Origin: Mycobacterium intracellulare ATCC 13950
Lineage (GTDB): Bacteria > Actinomycetota > Actinomycetes > Mycobacteriales > Mycobacteriaceae
Reading direction: 5' to 3'
NCBI RefSeq assembly: GCF_000277125.1
Contig: NC_016946.1
Location: forward strand, 5,022,001-5,086,000
DNA: 64,000 bases
Both the position numbers and the translations under genes were made by a program. Below, piece after piece: positions 21,325 through 58,719 of this stretch; position 1 is the stretch's first letter, and each line of letters begins with the position of its first letter. A model generated the notes under the pieces. That model made no database searches. It had not been told where the DNA came from and worked only from the letters and a program-made list of their open reading frames with translations.

Positions 21325-22152
21325 ATGAGCGCACCCACGGCGAACCGTCCTGCGTCCGGTGTCTTTTCACCCACGCGCGCCCGTATACAGCAGCGGACCC
21401 TCCGTACCGACCGGTGGTGGATGTCGCCGCTGAGGATCGACCTCGGCTTCGCCGCATTCGTCATCTACGCGACGGCACGAGCGTTCCAGCAGAACTACTT
21501 CTTCGTCCCCAAATACCACTACCTGACGCCGTTCTACTCGCCGTGCGTCAGCAAGGGTTGCGGTGAGGCCGGCGACATCTGGCCGCAGTTCCTGCCCGAC
21601 GTGTGGTGGCTGCCGTATGCGGCGGTGTCGCTGCCGTTCCTGCTGCTGTTCCGGTTGACCTGCTACTACTACCGCGGCGCCTACTACCGCACGGTGTGGC
21701 AGTCGCCCACCGCGTGTGCGGTGGCCGAGCCCCGCGTGCACTACAGCGGCGAGACGAAGTTCCCGCTGATCATCCAGAACACCCACCGGTACTTCTTCTA
21801 CATCGCCTGCCTCATCTCGATCGTCAACAGCTACGACGCGATCGTCGCGTTCCATTCCGACAGCGGGCCGGGCGGATTCGGCTTCGGGCTGGGCAACCTG
21901 ATCCTGCTGGGCAACGTCATCATGCTGTGGGTCTACACGCTGTCCTGCCACTCCTGCCGGCACGTGACCGGTGGGCGACTCAAGCACTTCTCCAAAAACC
22001 CTGTGCGGTATTGGATCTGGACGCAGGTCAGCGCGATGAACACCCGGCACAAGCAGTTCGCCTGGATCACGCTGGGCACCCTGATGCTCACCGATTTCTA
22101 CATCGCACTGGTGGCCAGCGGCGCCATCAGCGACCTGAGATTCGTTGGCTGA
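21325..22152 (+). CDS. sdhC: Succinate dehydrogenase Sdh1 membrane subunit SdhC
   Basis: 275 residues with about five hydrophobic segments (for example LRIDLGFAAFVIYATA, YAAVSLPFLLLF and ITLGTLMLTDFYIAL). It anchors the SdhAB dimer and reduces menaquinone. The M. smegmatis Sdh1 structure was reported to hold a membrane-embedded Rieske-type FeS cluster instead of the usual heme. The Cys/His group SCHSCRH between transmembrane segments is a good candidate for the ligands here. A second Cys pair (PCVSKGC) lies in an early loop. GAGGAAC precedes the ATG. It is the first gene of sdhCAB; homologous to Rv0249c. Confidence 0.9.
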   Translation: MSAPTANRPASGVFSPTRARIQQRTLRTDRWWMSPLRIDLGFAAFVIYATARAFQQNYFFVPKYHYLTPFYSPCVSKGCGEAGDIWPQFLPDVWWLPYAAVSLPFLLLFRLTCYYYRGAYYRTVWQSPTACAVAEPRVHYSGETKFPLIIQNTHRYFFYIACLISIVNSYDAIVAFHSDSGPGGFGFGLGNLILLGNVIMLWVYTLSCHSCRHVTGGRLKHFSKNPVRYWIWTQVSAMNTRHKQFAWITLGTLMLTDFYIALVASGAISDLRFVG

Positions 22153-22198
22153 AAAGCCATTTGACTTACAAATCAGAACGTAGCTAGCGAGGGTTTTC

Positions 22199-24142
22199 AT
22201 GGTTGATGTCGAGCGGCATGCCTACGACGTAGTCGTCATCGGCGCCGGCGGCGCGGGATTGCGCGCGGTCATCGAGGCGCGCGAACGCGGCCTGCGGGTC
22301 GCGGTGGTGTGCAAGTCCCTGTTCGGCAAGGCACACACCGTGATGGCCGAGGGTGGGTGCGCGGCCTCGATGGGCAACACCAACCCGAAGGACAACTGGA
22401 AGACCCACTTCGGCGACACGATGCGCGGTGGGAAGTTCCTCAACAACTGGCGGATGGCCGAACTGCACGCCAAGGAGGCCCCCGACCGCGTCTGGGAGCT
22501 GGAAACCTATGGCGCGCTGTTCGATCGCCTCAAGGACGGCAAGATCAGCCAGCGCAACTTCGGCGGGCACACCTACCCGCGGCTGGCGCACGTCGGTGAC
22601 CGCACCGGCCTGGAGCTGATCCGCACCATGCAGCAGAAGATCGTCTCGCTGCAGCAGGAGGACTACGCCGAGCTCGGCGACTACGAGGCCCGCATCCGGG
22701 TGTTCGCCGAAACCACGATCACCGAACTGATCAAGGACGGCGACGCGATCGCCGGGGCGTTCGGCTACATCCGCGAAAGCGGCAACTTCATCCTGTTCGA
22801 GGCGCCCGCGGTGGTGCTGGCCACCGGCGGCATCGGCAAGTCGTTCAAGGTCACCTCGAACTCCTGGGAGTACACCGGCGACGGGCACGCCCTGGCGCTC
22901 CGGGCGGGCGCGTCCCTGATCAACATGGAGTTCGTCCAGTTCCACCCGACGGGCATGGTGTGGCCGCCGAGCGTGAAGGGGATCCTGGTCACCGAGGGCG
23001 TTCGCGGCGACGGCGGGGTGCTGAAGAACTCCGACGACAAGCGGTTCATGTTCGACTACATCCCGCCGGTCTTCAAAGGCCAGTACGCCGAGACCGAGCA
23101 AGAGGCCGACCAGTGGCTCAAGGACAACGACTCGGCCCGCCGCACCCCTGACCTGCTGCCGCGCGACGAGGTCGCGCGCGCGATCAACTCCGAGGTCAAG
23201 GCCGGCCGGGGCAGCCCACACGGCGGCGTCTTCCTCGACATCGCGTCGCGGCTGACGCCCGCGGAGATCAACCGCCGCCTGCCGTCGATGTACCACCAGT
23301 TCAAGGAGCTGGCCGGGGTCGACATCACCAAGGAGCCGATGGAAGTCGGGCCGACCTGCCACTACGTGATGGGCGGCGTCGAGGTCGACGCCGACACCGG
23401 GGCGGCCACCGTGCCCGGGCTCTTCGCCGCGGGCGAATGCTCCGGCGGCATGCACGGCTCGAACCGGCTGGGCGGCAACTCGCTGTCGGACCTGCTGGTG
23501 TTCGGCCGGCGCGCCGGCCTGGGCGCCGCCGACTACGTGCGGGCGCTGAGCAGCCGTCCGACGGTCGGCGACGGCGCCGTCGAGGCGGCGGCGAAGCGGG
23601 CCCTGTCCCCCTTCGAGGCGCCGGCGGGCGGCGGCCCCGGCGAGAACCCCTACACCCTGCAGCTCGAGCTGCAGCAGTCGATGAACGACCTGGTCGGCAT
23701 CATCCGCAATGCCGACGAGATCTCCGAGGCTTTGGCCCGGCTCGACAAGCTGCGGGAGCGGTTCAAGAACCTGCATGTGGAGGGGCAGCGCCGCTACAAC
23801 CCGGGCTGGAACCTGGCCATCGACCTGCGCAACATGCTGCTGGTCAGCGAATGCGTCGCCAAGGCCGCGCTGCAGCGCACCGAGAGCCGGGGCGGGCACA
23901 CCCGCGACGACCACCCGTCGATGGACTCGTCGTGGCGCAAGCTGTTGCTGGTCTGCGAGGCAGTCGCCGAGCCAGGCGACGTTGAAGCCGCGGTGATCCC
24001 CGACATCACCATCACGAAGAAAGAGCAGACGCCGATGCGGCCCGATCTGCTGGAACTGTTCGACATCGCCGAGCTGGAGAAGTACTACACCGACGAGGAG
24101 CTCGCCGGGCATCCAGGGCGGACACCCAGGACGGAGAAGTAA
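22199..24142 (+). CDS. sdhA: Succinate dehydrogenase flavoprotein subunit SdhA (Sdh1)
   Basis: 647 residues. The N-terminus has the FAD dinucleotide motif VVIGAGGAGLRA. His46 in GKAHTVMAEGG sits where SdhA proteins attach FAD covalently. The substrate-site features FVQFHPTGM, TEGVRGDGG and PTCHYVMGG, and the second FAD motif FAAGECSGGMHGSNRLGGN, are all present. It oxidises succinate to fumarate. ATG 22199 follows GCGAGGG. It is co-transcribed with sdhC (46 bp upstream) and abuts sdhB. Homologous to Rv0248c. Confidence 0.95.
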   Translation: MVDVERHAYDVVVIGAGGAGLRAVIEARERGLRVAVVCKSLFGKAHTVMAEGGCAASMGNTNPKDNWKTHFGDTMRGGKFLNNWRMAELHAKEAPDRVWELETYGALFDRLKDGKISQRNFGGHTYPRLAHVGDRTGLELIRTMQQKIVSLQQEDYAELGDYEARIRVFAETTITELIKDGDAIAGAFGYIRESGNFILFEAPAVVLATGGIGKSFKVTSNSWEYTGDGHALALRAGASLINMEFVQFHPTGMVWPPSVKGILVTEGVRGDGGVLKNSDDKRFMFDYIPPVFKGQYAETEQEADQWLKDNDSARRTPDLLPRDEVARAINSEVKAGRGSPHGGVFLDIASRLTPAEINRRLPSMYHQFKELAGVDITKEPMEVGPTCHYVMGGVEVDADTGAATVPGLFAAGECSGGMHGSNRLGGNSLSDLLVFGRRAGLGAADYVRALSSRPTVGDGAVEAAAKRALSPFEAPAGGGPGENPYTLQLELQQSMNDLVGIIRNADEISEALARLDKLRERFKNLHVEGQRRYNPGWNLAIDLRNMLLVSECVAKAALQRTESRGGHTRDDHPSMDSSWRKLLLVCEAVAEPGDVEAAVIPDITITKKEQTPMRPDLLELFDIAELEKYYTDEELAGHPGRTPRTEK

Positions 24143-24889
24143 ATGACCTACAACGCGACGATGCGGGTGTGGCGCGGCGACGACGCCAACGGTGCGTTGC
24201 AGGACTTCACCGTCGAGGTCAACGAGGGTGAGGTCGTCCTCGACATCATTCACCGCCTGCAGCAGACCCAGACGCCCGACCTGGCGGTCCGGTGGAACTG
24301 CAAGGCGGGCAAGTGCGGCTCGTGCTCCGCGGAGATCAACGGCTATCCGCGGTTGCTCTGCATGACCCGGATGTCGACGTTCGCCGAGGACGAGGTCGTC
24401 ACGGTCACGCCGCTGCGGACGTTCCCGGTGATCCGGGACCTGGTCACCGACGTCTCGTTCAACTACGAGAAGGCCCGCGAGATACCGTCTTTCGCACCGC
24501 CCAAGGACCTGCAACCCGGCGAGTACCGGATGGCGCAGGAGGACGTCCAGCGCTCCCAAGAGTTCCGCAAGTGCATCGAATGCTTCCTGTGCCAGAACGT
24601 GTGCCACGTGGTCCGCGACCACGAGGAGAACAAGAAGGCGTTCGCCGGCCCCCGCTTCCTGATGCGGATCGCCGAGCTGGAGATGCACCCGCTGGACACC
24701 CGGGACCGGCGCAAGGACGCCCAGGAAGAGCACGGCCTGGGGTACTGCAACATCACCAAGTGCTGCACCGAGGTCTGCCCGGAGAACATCAAGATCACCG
24801 ACAACGCGCTGATCCCGATGAAGGAGCGCGTCGCCGACCGCAAGTACGACCCGGTGGTCTGGCTCGGTAACAAGCTGTTCCGTCGCTGA
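24143..24889 (+). CDS. sdhB: Succinate dehydrogenase iron-sulfur subunit SdhB (Sdh1)
   Basis: 248 residues. The N-terminal plant-ferredoxin-like domain has the [2Fe-2S] ligands in CKAGKCGSC and the later Cys of RLLCM. The C-terminal helical domain has the [4Fe-4S]/[3Fe-4S] ligands in CIECFLCQNVC and CNITKCCTEVCPE. It passes electrons from SdhA FAD to the SdhC quinone site. The ATG follows the sdhA stop directly, with GGAGAAG as ribosome-binding site. Homologous to Rv0247c. Confidence 0.95.
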   Translation: MTYNATMRVWRGDDANGALQDFTVEVNEGEVVLDIIHRLQQTQTPDLAVRWNCKAGKCGSCSAEINGYPRLLCMTRMSTFAEDEVVTVTPLRTFPVIRDLVTDVSFNYEKAREIPSFAPPKDLQPGEYRMAQEDVQRSQEFRKCIECFLCQNVCHVVRDHEENKKAFAGPRFLMRIAELEMHPLDTRDRRKDAQEEHGLGYCNITKCCTEVCPENIKITDNALIPMKERVADRKYDPVVWLGNKLFRR

Positions 24890-53700: not shown

Positions 53701-55347
53701 TCACAGCGTTTCGTCCAGCTCGCCGAGCCGGTCGGTCAGCCGCAGGTTCTCCGAGTAGTCGACCGGGCAGCTGATCAACGAGACGCCCTCGTCGTCGAGC
53801 GCGGCGCGCAGCGTCGGGAGCAGTTCGTCGGCATGAGTGATCCGATATCCCTTGGCGCCGAAGCTTTCCGCGTACGTCACCACGTCCGGGTTGTTGAATT
53901 TCACGTAGTAGTGCGCCCCGAGCTCGAGATCCATCTTCCATTCGATGAGGCCGTACCCGCCGTCCTCCCAGATCAGCACGACCAGCGGTATCCGCTCGCG
54001 CACGGCGGTCTCGATCTCCTGCGAGTTCATCAGGAACGCGCCGTCGCCGACGACGGCCAGCACCTTGGACTCCGGCTGCGCCAGCTTGACGCCGAGCGCC
54101 CCGGGAAGGGCGAAGCTCATGGTGGACAGGCCGTTTGAGATCAGGCAGGTGTTCTTTTCATACGTCGGGTAGAGCCGGGCCATCCACATCTTGGTGGCGC
54201 CGGTGTCGACCAGGACGACGTCGCTGCGGCCCAGCGCCGCGCGGGTGTCGGCGACCACCCGCGCCGGCGCCAGCGGGTAGCGCGAATCCTGTTGCCCCCG
54301 GGCGAATTCCTCGGCGAGCAGGCCCGACCCGGGCACGTCGGCGGCGTGGCTGAAGCTGTGACCGGAGAGCGCGTCGGTGAGGGCGTTCAGCGAATCGCTG
54401 ATGTCCCCGATGATCCCCACGTCGACCGAGTAGTGCGCGTCGACCTCGGCGGGGAACCGGTGAATGTGGATGATCTTCTTGTCGGCCTGGGGGTTGATGC
54501 GGACCGGGTCGAATTCCTGCAACTCGTAGCCGACGGCGATGACGACGTCGGCGTTGTCGAACCCGAAGTTGACGTAGTCGTGCCGCATGAAGCCCAGCGT
54601 GCCGATGCTGTTGCGGTGGTCGTCGGGCATGACGCCCTTGCCGTGGAAGGTGTTGGCCACCTGGATGCCGAACTCGTCGGAGAAGCGCACCAGGGCTTTG
54701 GTGGCGTCGGCGCGCGCGGCGCCGTGCCCGGCCAGCACCACCGGGCGCTTGGCGTTGCGCAGGATTGCGACGGCGCGTTCCACCTGGCGGGGCGCCGGAG
54801 CGTCGGGGCGCACGACGTTGCGCGGCAACGGCCCCAGGTCGTAATCCTTCTCGTCGGCGTCGATGTGCTCGGGCACCGCGAGATAGACCGCGGCCGGGCG
54901 TTCGGACTCGGCGAGCTTGAACGCCTTGCGCACCATCTCCGGGATGGCGCGCGGGGTCGGGATGCCGGCCGCCCACCGGGTGATCGGGGCGAACATCGAC
55001 ACCAGGTCGACGTATTGGTGTGACTCCTTGAACTCCCGGTCGTGGCCCACCTGCGCGGAGATGGCGACCAGCGGGGTGCTGTTGGTGGTGGCGTCGGCGA
55101 CGCCGAGCTGCATGTTGATCGCGCCGGGCCCCAGGGTGGCCGACACCACCGCCGCCCGGCCGGTGACCCGGCCGTACATCTCGGCCATGAAGGACGCGGC
55201 CTGCTCGTGCCGGGTGAGCACGTAGCGGATGGGCGACGCCGCCAGGGCCTGCACGAATCGGATGTTCTCCTCGCCGGGCACCCCGAACACGACGGAAACG
55301 CCCTCGTTTTCCAGGCACTTGACGATCAACTCGGCGGCTCTGCTCAT
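53701..55347 (-). CDS. ThDP enzyme annotated-type acetolactate synthase, possible 2-oxoglutarate decarboxylase
   Basis: 548 residues in the three-domain ThDP layout. The PYR domain has the cofactor Glu in TRHEQAASFMAEMYGR and the signature VKCLENEGVSVVFGVPGEEN. The middle domain is Rossmann-like (PVVLAGHGAARADATKALV). The PP domain has the metal motif VVGDGAFLMNSQEIE with IWEDGGYGLI. Typical annotation is acetolactate synthase large subunit, but no small subunit is present. The N-terminal pattern (GVPGEEN, SHQYVDLVSMF) is of the kind I recall from cyanobacterial 2-oxoglutarate decarboxylases, which are also found beside succinate-semialdehyde dehydrogenase. gabD1 is divergent 80 bp away. Substrate unproven. 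Confidence 0.85.
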   Translation of the reverse strand: MSRAAELIVKCLENEGVSVVFGVPGEENIRFVQALAASPIRYVLTRHEQAASFMAEMYGRVTGRAAVVSATLGPGAINMQLGVADATTNSTPLVAISAQVGHDREFKESHQYVDLVSMFAPITRWAAGIPTPRAIPEMVRKAFKLAESERPAAVYLAVPEHIDADEKDYDLGPLPRNVVRPDAPAPRQVERAVAILRNAKRPVVLAGHGAARADATKALVRFSDEFGIQVANTFHGKGVMPDDHRNSIGTLGFMRHDYVNFGFDNADVVIAVGYELQEFDPVRINPQADKKIIHIHRFPAEVDAHYSVDVGIIGDISDSLNALTDALSGHSFSHAADVPGSGLLAEEFARGQQDSRYPLAPARVVADTRAALGRSDVVLVDTGATKMWMARLYPTYEKNTCLISNGLSTMSFALPGALGVKLAQPESKVLAVVGDGAFLMNSQEIETAVRERIPLVVLIWEDGGYGLIEWKMDLELGAHYYVKFNNPDVVTYAESFGAKGYRITHADELLPTLRAALDDEGVSLISCPVDYSENLRLTDRLGELDETL

Positions 55348-55427
55348 CCGGCACCTCCCTTGAAGGAACGATAGTGGCAGGGTGGGTGTTGGACTTTTCA
55401 GCTACTCATCCGATGAAGGAGGGCCAG

Positions 55428-56846
55428 GTGCCCATCGCCACCATTAACCCGGCTACCGGCGAGACGGTGAAAACCTTCACCCCGGCCACCGATCAAGAAG
55501 TCGATGCCGCGATCGCCCGTGCCTACGAACGCTTCCTCGACTACCGCCACAACACCACGTTTGCCCAGCGCGCGGGGTGGGCAAACGCCACCGCCGACCT
55601 GCTGGAAGCGGAGGCCGACGACGTCGCCGCCATGATGACGCTGGAGATGGGCAAGACCCTGAAATCGGCCAAGGCCGAGGTGTTGAAGTGCGCCAAGGGT
55701 TTTCGGTACTACGCCGAGCACGCCGAGCAGCTGCTCGCCGACGAGCCGGCCGACGCCAAGGCGGTGGGCGCGAAGAAGGCCTACATCCGCTATCAACCGC
55801 TCGGCGTCGTGCTGGCGGTGATGCCCTGGAACTTCCCGCTGTGGCAGGCCGTGCGGTTCGCCGCCCCGGCGCTGATGGCCGGCAACGTCGGGATCCTCAA
55901 GCACGCCTCGAACGTCCCCCAGAGCGCGCTGTACCTTTCCGACGTCATCACCCGCGGGGGCTTCCCCGAGGGCTGCTTCCAGACCCTGCTGGTCTCCTCG
56001 GGCGCCGTCGAGCGCATCCTGCGCGACCCGCGCGTCGCGGCGGCCACCCTGACCGGTAGCGAGCCGGCCGGCCAATCGGTGGCGGCCATCGCCGGCGACG
56101 AGATCAAGCCGACGGTGCTCGAGCTCGGCGGCAGCGACCCGTTCATCGTGATGCCCTCGGCGGACCTGGACGAGGCCGCCAAGACCGCGGTCACCGCACG
56201 GGTGCAGAACAACGGCCAATCCTGCATCGCCGCAAAGCGGTTCATCGTCCACACCGACATCTACGACGCGTTCGTCGACAAGTTCACCGAGCGCATGCAG
56301 GCGCTCACCGTCGGCGACCCGACCGACCCCGACACCGACGTGGGCCCGCTGGCCACCGAGTCCGGCCGCGACGAGATCGCCAAGCAGGTCGACGACGCCG
56401 CCGCCGCGGGCGCCACCATCCGCCTCGGCGGAAAGCCCATCGACGGGCCGGGGTGGTTCTACCCGCCCACGGTGGTGACCGACATCACCAAGGACATGGC
56501 CCTCTACACCGAGGAGGTGTTCGGCCCCGTCGCGTCGATGTACCGGGCGGCCGACATCGACGAGGCCATCGAGATCGCCAACGCCACCACGTTCGGCCTG
56601 GGGTCCAACGCCTGGACCAACGACGAGGCCGAGCAGCAGCGCTTCATCGACGACATCGAGGCCGGCCAGGTCTTCATCAACGGGATGACGGTGTCCTACC
56701 CCGAGCTGGGGTTCGGCGGCGTCAAACGGTCCGGCTACGGACGCGAACTCGCGGGCCTGGGCATCCGCGCGTTCGTCAACGCCAAGACCGTCTGGGTCGG
56801 CGAATCCGAAAGCGGCTCCTCGTCGGGCGACGACAAGGTCGAGTGA
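55428..56846 (+). CDS. gabD1: Succinate-semialdehyde dehydrogenase GabD1
   Basis: 472 residues; M. tuberculosis GabD1 is about 457. Aldehyde dehydrogenase motifs: MPWNFPLWQAVRFAAPAL, ELGGSDPFIV with the general-base Glu, and NNGQSCIAAKRF with the nucleophile Cys. It oxidises succinate semialdehyde to succinate; the M. tuberculosis enzyme uses NADP. GTG 55428 with GAAGGAGG upstream is chosen over ATG 55374 and ATG 55413. A Ser/Gly/Asp tail of 15 residues is extra. Divergent from the ThDP enzyme; homologous to Rv0234c. Confidence 0.93.
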   Translation: MPIATINPATGETVKTFTPATDQEVDAAIARAYERFLDYRHNTTFAQRAGWANATADLLEAEADDVAAMMTLEMGKTLKSAKAEVLKCAKGFRYYAEHAEQLLADEPADAKAVGAKKAYIRYQPLGVVLAVMPWNFPLWQAVRFAAPALMAGNVGILKHASNVPQSALYLSDVITRGGFPEGCFQTLLVSSGAVERILRDPRVAAATLTGSEPAGQSVAAIAGDEIKPTVLELGGSDPFIVMPSADLDEAAKTAVTARVQNNGQSCIAAKRFIVHTDIYDAFVDKFTERMQALTVGDPTDPDTDVGPLATESGRDEIAKQVDDAAAAGATIRLGGKPIDGPGWFYPPTVVTDITKDMALYTEEVFGPVASMYRAADIDEAIEIANATTFGLGSNAWTNDEAEQQRFIDDIEAGQVFINGMTVSYPELGFGGVKRSGYGRELAGLGIRAFVNAKTVWVGESESGSSSGDDKVE

Positions 56847-56850
56847 GCTG

Positions 56851-57792
56851 CTAGGCCGACGCGCCCGCCAGCGCCTTTTCGTCCTCGTCGGCGAACGTGT
56901 CCTCGAGCTGCAGCGGCGAGTAGTCCAGGTCGATCTCGCCGAGCGGCCGGCCGCGGGCGCTGGAGATGGTGCCGAACCGCCGCATCCCCTTGTCGGAGGC
57001 GTACTGCATGAACTCGTCGACCGACAGGCCGAACGGCATCGGGTCGTAGAGGGCGAAGCCCTCCTCGATCAGCCGCAGCCCGAGCGGCATGAGTTCGTTC
57101 ATGCGCGTTTCGAAGACGCCCCAGTTGGCGTCGTCGGCGGCCACGTGGCGACGGCAGGTGAAAGTGCCCCACGCCATGTGGCGGCGCTCGTCGTCGCCGA
57201 TCCGCCGGACCAGCTCCTGCATGCCGGGCAGGATGCCGCGTTCCACGCAGATCTTGTGCCAGCCGAAGTAGCCGGTCAGCGCCAACATGCCTTCGACCAT
57301 GTGGTTGTAGGTCACCGACGCCCGCACCTGGGCGGCCGGCGACGGATCGAGCGTCAGCGCGTTCAGACACGCCGGCAGTTCCTCGTAGAAGATGGTGCGG
57401 TAGGTCGGGACGTCGTCGAGGAAGTAGTGCAGGTCCTCGGTGATGCCGACGGCGTCGAGCCACATGCGGAACACCTGGACGTGCTTGGCTTCCTCGAAGG
57501 CGAACTGCGTCAGGTACATCTCGTCACCCAGCCGGCCTTCGGCCCGCATCGCGGCCATGAACGGCTGGATGTCCTGGGTCACCGATTCCTCGCCGGCGAT
57601 GAACTCGGCGCACAACCGCGTCGCATAGCTGCGTTCGTCCTCGGTGAGGCGTTCCCAGTCCTCCCGGTCGCGGGAGAAATCAATGTCGGCCGGATTCCAG
57701 AATTTCGCGTTGCCGCCCGCAAACAGCTTGAGCGGCAAGCTATCCCAGTTGAGACCGCCCTCGGCCATCGAGGCGATTCGGGTTCGATTCAT
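56851..57792 (-). CDS. nrdB: R2-like ligand-binding oxidase (R2lox), Mn/Fe type
   Basis: 313 residues, one less than M. tuberculosis Rv0233 (R2lox). Often annotated as ribonucleotide reductase beta subunit NrdB, but it belongs to the oxidase branch. The metal ligands are visible: Glu in AGEESVTQD, Glu and His in [10 protein letters not shown], Glu in YNHMVEGML, Glu and His in [11 protein letters not shown]. The Val of EESVTQD and Tyr of LTGYFGW are the pair reported to form an ether cross-link. The fold binds a long-chain fatty acid. GAGGAGG lies within the upstream TetR gene and the ATG overlaps its stop by 4 nt. Convergent with gabD1. Confidence 0.92.
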
Positions 57793-58475
57793 GAGACCTC
57801 CTCAGATCGTTGGGGGGCTGAGTTGACGGAGGAGTCCGCCGAGAATGCCGCGGCCAGCACGCCGACGAGCCTGCGCACGGCCAGCGCCGGCTGCTCGGGG
57901 GTGGGCTCGTCGAGCCCGAGGATCGGGTCCAGCCCGCGCATGTAGGGCGCCAGCGCCAGGTGCGGAAAGATCAACAGCAGCAACGACAACAGCGCGTCGG
58001 TGTCCGACTCGGCGCGCAGGTCGCCGCGCAGGTGCGCGTCGCGGACCAGCGGGCGCATCACTTCCAGGTAGTGGCGGTGGATGACGTTCTGCACGCTGAC
58101 GCGGGCCTCGGTGTCGACTTCGAGGGTCGCCGCGGCGTGCAGTGCGCGCTCGTGCGGGTGGTCGGCAAAGTAGGCCACCCAGGCGTCGAGCCAGTCGGTC
58201 AGGAACTCGAAGAAGGGCCGGCTCGGGTCGAGTTCGCGGATGCGGCCCTCCATGTAGGCCCGCACCCGCTGGCTGGCGATGTCGGCGATGAACGCGTACA
58301 GGTCGCGCTTGTCGGCGAAGTACTGGAACAGGCTGCCCTTGGCGACGCCCGCGCGGCGCGCGATGACGTTGAGGCTGCCACGGGAGAAGCCGTGCGCCCC
58401 GAATTCCGCCTCCGCGGCTTCGATGATCGCGGCGCGACGAGCGGGGTCGACGCGCGCCCAGGTGACCGTCGGCAA
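57789..58475 (-). CDS. TetR-family regulator upstream of R2lox (Rv0232-like)
   Basis: 228 residues from a TTG start at 58475, which has GAGGAG 9 nt upstream. The ATG at 58508 lies inside a perfect palindrome just behind the promoter and is less likely. TetR fold: [21 protein letters not shown] and [19 protein letters not shown] for the DNA-binding helices, then a long ligand domain. The 4-nt overlap with R2lox couples the two genes, so the regulator probably controls its own operon and may sense a fatty-acid-like ligand. Homologous to Rv0232. Confidence 0.9.
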
Positions 58476-58493
58476 TGCTGGCTCCTCGCTTCG

Positions 58494-58508
58494 ATGACCA
58501 CTGGTCAT
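58494..58508. promoter_or_regulatory. Perfect operator palindrome of the TetR-R2lox operon
   Basis: ATGACCA-C-TGGTCAT is a perfect 7+7 inverted repeat. It overlaps the -10 region and the likely transcription start of the promoter, so repressor binding would block RNA polymerase. Confidence 0.75.
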
Positions 58509-58534
58509 ATTACGGTGACCTGCGTCACAGTCAA
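58507..58534 (-). promoter_or_regulatory. SigA-type promoter of the TetR-R2lox operon
   Basis: On the minus strand, TTGACT (58529-58534), a 16-nt spacer and TAATAT (58507-58512). The spacer contains a GTGAC-N4-GTCAC inverted repeat (58515-58528). Very close to the vegetative consensus. Confidence 0.7.
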
Positions 58535-58719
58535 GGGGTCGCGTCCAGCCGCCTTGCCGAGTGCCCGGCGGCCTGGGCACGCGAATCCCAGCGCCCGGCC
58601 GACCGGGCGCTCGGCGAGCGAACTTCAGGCGGGGGTTTGCTTGCCGACCGTGACGGCAGAGTCACGTTCGGCCCCCGGCGCGACTGCACAGTCACGCCCG
58701 GGCGCCGAAGGCAACGAAC

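Follow-up and report, generated by a model that had tools for sequence, protein, structure and literature searches.

A divergent gene pair in Mycobacterium intracellulare

The analyzed stretch of DNA, referred to as the window, comprises 64,000 nt of the 5.40-Mb genome of Mycobacterium intracellulare ATCC 13950 (contig NC_016946.1, positions 5,022,001 to 5,086,000), and this study concerns two divergent genes within it. The gene on the minus strand (53701..55347) starts with ATG and encodes a thiamine diphosphate (ThDP)-dependent enzyme of 548 amino acids, which was assigned to the PRK08322 family by its domains, the family cut-off, its residues and phylogenetic trees. The gene on the plus strand is gabD1 (55428..56846), identified as the gene for an NADP-dependent succinate-semialdehyde dehydrogenase (SSADH) by its PRK09406 score and its solved relatives. 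The 80 bp between them (55348..55427) contain both ribosome-binding sites and the conserved block AACGATAGTGGCAGG. This intergenic region is probably a shared promoter region, and the two genes may be co-regulated; a scan of the 80 bp for the sigma-70 consensus gave no match. The longest open reading frame (ORF) of gabD1 begins with GTG at 55374. Because family similarity sets in only at residue 17–19 of its product and because AAGGAGG precedes the GTG at 55428, the latter was preferred as the likelier start, and this start codon is kept in 26 of 30 aligned loci. There is no small-subunit gene beside the ThDP gene, the neighbors being genes for a DUF309 protein, the SSADH and an R2-like ligand-binding oxidase (R2lox). 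The ORFs and the domain and family models thus agree with the sequence-only reading of the window, which had described an acetolactate-synthase-like ThDP gene without a small subunit, divergent to gabD1 at a distance of 80 bp.

Three ThDP-enzyme Pfam domains were found above the cut-off in the ThDP protein. With NCBIfam model NF006187/PRK08322 it scored 783.8 bits (cut-off 509), and among the best 25 of the 54 NCBIfam models that matched, the remaining 24, including AlsS and acetolactate synthases, stayed below their own cut-offs. The two models of catabolic AlsS yielded 451.4 (cut-off 510) and 426.4 (cut-off 551.1), the model of biosynthetic acetohydroxyacid synthase (IlvB) yielded 363.7 (cut-off 538.35), and the score with the glyoxylate carboligase model was likewise too low. 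The best-scoring solved structures are AlsS enzymes, namely an ancestral AlsS with 352 bits, followed by structures with 326–321 bits; the alignments with 4rjj and 1ozf (323–326 bits) extend over nearly the full length. The protein is 98% identical to a Mycobacterium intracellulare protein, and proteins of M. avium, M. timonense and M. colombiense are among the 95–97% matches, as would fit a member of the M. avium complex. Close relatives carry the database name "acetolactate synthase large subunit". Other ThDP relatives in the same genome are only 24–31% identical to it. GabD1 scored 901.7 bits with PRK09406 (NADP-SSADH, cut-off 730), and its best solved relatives are the succinate-semialdehyde dehydrogenases 4it9 and 3vz1 (579–573 bits; next group 390), the former of which we take to be the enzyme of Synechococcus PCC 7002.

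Conservation of the pairing in the genus

The distribution of both genes was analyzed in a sample of 198 genomes of the genus, with a threshold of E ≤ 1e-150 for ThDP matches. Such matches were present in 87 genomes: 60 intact copies, including that of the window, are 81–100% identical, 26 are 64–67% identical, and one is broken. We suspect that the two identity classes correspond to slow and rapid growers. A gabD1 gene (at least 78% identity) was present in 77 of the 198 genomes. In 57 of the 60 genomes with an intact close copy, gabD1 is divergent to the ThDP gene, 56 times within 1 kb and once at 2.3 kb. Of the three exceptions, one (G148, locus L032) has an incomplete gabD1 33 bp from the ThDP gene, one (G070) is a 73%-complete genome in which the ThDP copy and the sole gabD1 match lie on different contigs, and the third (G090) has no aldehyde dehydrogenase (ALDH) gene in the 9.7 kb of its locus. 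One additional close copy (G790) is also paired with gabD1. The ThDP-gabD1 unit is therefore real and maintained, and it is conserved well beyond chance. Of the 30 aligned loci, 21 have an exact copy of the intergenic block AACGATAGTGGCAGG and 24 have its last 12 bases; the intergenic arrangement is altered at three loci (L022, L033, L041).

Two further observations concern this locus. In a 3.2-Mb genome (L066, G089:C83:71900-83000), the broken ThDP gene contains five in-frame stops and is still divergent to gabD1; this mycobacterial genome is probably reduced, and the ThDP-GabD1 pathway seems to have been lost there. The R2lox gene of the window is convergent with gabD1 (56851-58580, including the next gene, presumably that of a TetR regulator). 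Among 13 loci of relatives that were checked, 6 have R2lox in the vicinity of gabD1, and 2 of these 6 do not have the ThDP gene.

Phylogeny of the ThDP enzyme

Two trees were calculated, which include one AlsS and one IlvB-like protein; glyoxylate carboligase was left out. The FastTree set contained 164 proteins, with L153 shortened to 560 amino acids and without L001 (the same gene as in the window), L003, L004, L156 (truncated), L170 and the broken L066 copy. The IQ-TREE set consisted of 79 proteins chosen by hand from the FastTree set and the homologue lists. In FastTree, the window protein belongs to a clade of 59 sequences (support 1.0) with members from mycobacteria, Streptomyces, Pectobacterium, Roseomonas, Enterococcus and distant actinobacteria. 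IQ-TREE recovered this clade and a cyanobacterial clade, both with an ultrafast bootstrap (UFBoot) value of 100, and the window clade also takes in proteins from Oenococcus, Bombilactobacillus, Bifidobacterium, Hafnia and Zymomonas. The sequence-only reading had regarded a position with AlsS or glyoxylate carboligase as contrary to a 2-oxoglutarate decarboxylase; within the scope of these trees and models, no such position was found, as the protein lies outside the AlsS and IlvB-like proteins and scores below the cut-offs of the AlsS, IlvB and glyoxylate carboligase models. Deep branching was in conflict, as FastTree joined the cyanobacteria with the proteobacteria (1.0), whereas IQ-TREE joined the proteobacteria with the window clade (100).

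Within the IQ-TREE clade, the close mycobacterial copies form a group with the proteins of Streptomyces and family f88 (100) that does not include the 64–67% mycobacterial copies. This grouping suggests lateral transfer, and the ThDP gene was probably acquired laterally and then joined to gabD1 within one mycobacterial group.

The clade also contains protein P0243 of Oenococcus oeni (UFBoot 100), which is 49% identical to the window protein and has the same residue pattern. A 2-oxoglutarate decarboxylase was reportedly purified by Kapol and Radler in 1990 from Leuconostoc oenos, presumably the old name of O. oeni. According to a review (PMC7555314), O. oeni decarboxylates alpha-ketoglutaric acid, and the resulting succinate semialdehyde is either reduced to 4-hydroxybutyrate or oxidized to succinate; only the oxidation, by GabD1, is proposed for the window. 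As P0243 is a member of the clade and O. oeni decarboxylates 2-oxoglutarate, the window clade can be linked to this substrate, and in our analysis this membership appears to be the best new support for 2-oxoglutarate.

Active-site residues

Residues were numbered according to the Microcystis enzyme MaKGD (PMC10418658), and a Crocosphaera protein of equal length (P0209, 550 amino acids) served as the reference row. The available part of that paper describes a docking of 2-oxoglutarate against V382, A408, L467, Q254, K386 and K471, so that the contacts at these residues are model-based, and it describes substitutions at E50, M410, D435, D462, Y465 and L467, with no mutant of K386 or K471 among them, as well as H385 as a ThDP contact of the cyanobacterial enzyme. 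The window protein keeps E50, K386, M410, D435, D462, Y465, L467 and K471. Both lysines are present in 59 of 59 members of the window clade and in all 120 relatives listed for the Enterococcus enzyme, whereas in the B. subtilis AlsS row the two positions are A and Q. At position 408, 50 clade members, including the window protein, have S, and the 9 distant actinobacterial proteins have A. In the cyanobacterial clade, V382 and H385 occur in 34 of 34 proteins and Q254 in 33 of 34. K386 and K471 speak against AlsS, and the remaining changes speak against simply equating the protein with the cyanobacterial enzymes.

Of the 47 non-cyanobacterial homologues at the loci L089–L135, 21 have His rather than Lys at position 471, and this difference could possibly reflect a split in specificity within the family.

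Gene neighborhoods of homologues

The cyanobacterial 2-oxoglutarate decarboxylases (SynPCC7002_A2770, sll1981, MaKGD) were compared by way of close homologues of these characterized proteins. They are PRK08322-like ThDP enzymes of about 550 amino acids, 45–48% identical to the window protein, and their genes are also paired with that of an SSADH. For the cyanobacterial enzymes, kcat/KM values of 0.8–9 × 10^3 M-1 s-1 are reported (PMC10418658). A GabD1-type ALDH, 54–59% identical to GabD1, is encoded within 1 kb at 23 of 29 cyanobacterial loci. It lies upstream on the same strand, in contrast to the divergent arrangement of the window. At 6 loci no such ALDH was found, and two of them (L137, L144) have less than 650 bases upstream. 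In Haloarcula, the gene for a PRK09406-like ALDH (610 bits, under the cut-off of 730) overlaps, in the same orientation, the start of the gene for a 41% homologue. At 51 other loci from genome contigs, a GabD1-type ALDH within 1 kb was found in 0 of 51 cases and a different ALDH in 11 of 51. The ALDHs beside the homologues of Leisingera, Vibrio and Erythrobacteraceae were considered as SSADH pairs and rejected, because they are not of the GabD1 type and are below every listed cut-off.

A common metabolic partner was sought among selected neighboring ORFs at unpaired loci of the clade (L050–L057, which are 8 of the 26 mycobacterial copies of 64–67% identity, L058 of G090, L193–L198 of family f88, and L172–L177 of more distant actinobacteria), and none was shared. 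The neighbors included SecA, AdoHcyase, a response regulator, carbonic anhydrase, SDR, MOSC, efflux MFS and NYN domain proteins and others; a citrate synthase and a 2-oxoacid:ferredoxin oxidoreductase-type protein were each found at one locus (L180, outside the clade, and L175, respectively). ORF picking was rough in GC-rich loci and missed L178. Because the neighbors are mixed, the context at these loci does not fix the substrate.

An AEC/Mem_trans carrier gene adjoins the ThDP homologues of Pectobacterium and Roseomonas. In an unannotated stretch of an Enterococcus faecalis plasmid (L043, LR962590.1), genes for a Mem_trans carrier, the ThDP enzyme and an Fe-alcohol dehydrogenase stand in a row. 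The latter matched 14 models, all below their cut-offs, and 4-hydroxybutyrate dehydrogenase is one of them, not the best; the gene row could represent a path of 2-oxoglutarate uptake and 4-hydroxybutyrate formation. A gene with a glutamate-synthase domain adjoins the ThDP gene in Streptomyces Mg1 and at the 70% copies L171 and L199 (G301 and G722), but not in Streptomyces NBC_00080. On a Sulfitobacter plasmid (L047, NZ_CP081123.1), a 41% homologue directly follows the gene for NADP glutamate dehydrogenase, near 2-oxoglutarate metabolism.

A putative 2-oxoglutarate decarboxylase feeding GabD1

From the family, the residues and the pairing, we infer that the ThDP enzyme, which stands on a branch outside the cyanobacterial one, on balance probably acts as a 2-oxoglutarate decarboxylase and feeds GabD1. 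K386 and K471 would hold 2-oxoglutarate while the ThDP ylide adds to it; CO2 would leave, and protonation would yield succinate semialdehyde in a non-oxidative reaction. GabD1 would oxidize the semialdehyde to succinate with NADP, and the succinate would then be oxidized by Sdh. The sequence-only reading had assigned the last step to Sdh1 at 21325-24889. The genes for a flavoprotein (22199-24139) and an Fe-S protein (24143-24886) are indeed present, and a Pfam search of 21325-22149 gave no match. The genome encodes an E1 of the 2-oxoglutarate dehydrogenase/KGD type elsewhere and a gamma-aminobutyrate (GABA) transaminase that scored above its model cut-off, and the route from 2-oxoglutarate to succinate and NADPH would therefore be auxiliary, perhaps serving 2-oxoglutarate overflow or NADPH supply. 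The mycobacterial KGD/HOAS of the Rv1248c type also acts on 2-oxoglutarate (PMC10418658). It is a protein of another family, as Rv1248c presumably belongs to the PF16870-type E1 proteins, one of which is encoded elsewhere in the same genome.

Several observations weigh against the proposed function. The E1 and the GABA transaminase just mentioned belong to them. FastTree placed the cyanobacterial proteins in a separate clade of 34 sequences (support 1.0), with the window protein outside, and an approximately unbiased test, in which the constrained trees came from fast searches, disfavored the window and cyanobacterial clades as exclusive sisters (p = 0.035) and retained the two alternatives (p = 0.092 and 0.335). 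The window protein differs from the cyanobacterial enzymes by Q254M, V382T, H385T and A408S, and M254, T382 and a residue other than His at 385 are constant throughout the clade (59 of 59 sequences) and among the relatives listed for the Enterococcus enzyme (120 of 120). K386 is weak evidence of specificity because it is also found in every other PRK08322-like group that was tabulated. Within the clade, SSADH adjacency is a trait of one close mycobacterial group. No gabD1 match (E ≤ 1e-180) lies within 5 kb of any of the 26 copies of 64–67% identity, and no ALDH was found at any of the 27 loci of the clade that were examined beyond the paired group, with 7.7–11.8 kb per locus; these 27 comprise 8 of the 26 less similar copies, G090, family f88, and Streptomyces-type and more distant actinobacterial loci. 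Conversely, 19 of the 77 genomes with a close gabD1 do not have a ThDP match, and gabD1 is thus able to work without it. The sequence-only reading had added that H37Rv lacks the ThDP gene in this position. An IS6110 probe for M. tuberculosis matched none of these 19 genomes; the genus genomes that it did match (11 of 396) are 5.5–6.6 Mb in size and not M. tuberculosis, so that this species was not recognizable among the sampled genomes. The intergenic conservation may partly reflect shared descent, the species being close. Lastly, P0243 has a predicted isoelectric point of 5.75, compared with the 4.2 reported for the purified O. oeni enzyme (PMC10418658). The gene behind that enzyme is not named in the literature consulted, and P0243 is regarded here as a candidate for the purified protein.

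The bypass had been described in the sequence-only reading as the same as that of Synechococcus. The SSADH adjacency, the PRK08322 family and both lysines agree with this description; in view of the separate clade, the changes at Q254, V382 and H385 and the restriction of the pairing to a close mycobacterial group, it is overstated.

The changed pocket with both lysines kept would also fit a decarboxylase acting on some other 2-oxo dicarboxylic acid or a related acid, e.g., oxaloacetate, 2-oxoadipate or a substituted 2-oxoglutarate, with GabD1 oxidizing the resulting semialdehyde. The carriers adjoining the genes of the Pectobacterium, Roseomonas and Enterococcus relatives point in the same direction, as the AEC/Mem_trans family also transports other organic acids. 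However, the score of GabD1 clearly exceeds the NADP-SSADH cut-off and O. oeni ties the clade to 2-oxoglutarate, and we regard another oxoacid as unlikely, though to be kept in mind. A catabolic acetolactate synthase, converting pyruvate to acetolactate and standing beside gabD1 by history, is suggested by the nearest solved structures, the database names and the Zymomonas protein ZMO0687, presumably our relative P0322, which was labeled Als-like on similarity (PMC5010730). Nevertheless, the protein is under both AlsS cut-offs and over that of PRK08322, lysines occupy both positions throughout the clade, and the gene is paired with that of an SSADH in 57 of 60 genomes, which makes this function improbable.

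Many ThDP enzymes of this superfamily catalyze ligations, and 2-oxoglutarate could accordingly be the donor to another acceptor, with succinate semialdehyde as a side product scavenged by GabD1. Rv1248c (with glyoxylate) and MenD have been described as such carboligases (PMC10418658), yet no gene for an acceptor or a product pathway was recognized among the selected neighbors examined, and we consider this reaction very improbable. It also seems quite improbable that the role of GabD1 lies in the GABA shunt or in the removal of aldehydes and that its nearness to the ThDP gene is metabolically meaningless. The GABA transaminase and the 19 genomes with gabD1 alone would be explained in this way, but the divergent pairing is kept in 57 of 60 genomes over a range of 81–100% protein identity.

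Implications

The way in which mycobacteria turn 2-oxoglutarate into succinate is an old controversy, which has centered on Rv1248c. No report of a decarboxylase like the one proposed here was found for mycobacteria in the literature searched; subscription papers were outside its scope, and a passing mention elsewhere is possible. With a chance that we judge to be somewhat short of even, many mycobacteria, including the M. avium complex, may have a dedicated non-oxidative 2-oxoglutarate decarboxylase that is unrelated to Rv1248c, was acquired from a branch shared with lactic acid bacteria (in which it would correspond to the purified O. oeni enzyme) and is wired to gabD1. The analysis also offers a gene candidate for the 2-oxoglutarate decarboxylase of Oenococcus. 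If the proposal is true, the misleading name "acetolactate synthase" would be corrected, and the idea of a variant cycle would become testable in a new place through a second, dedicated decarboxylase, paired with gabD1 in the majority of this strain's close relatives. The citric acid cycle would then exist in a genuine, genetically encoded variant form, in the genus for which a variant of this kind was originally put forward with another enzyme.

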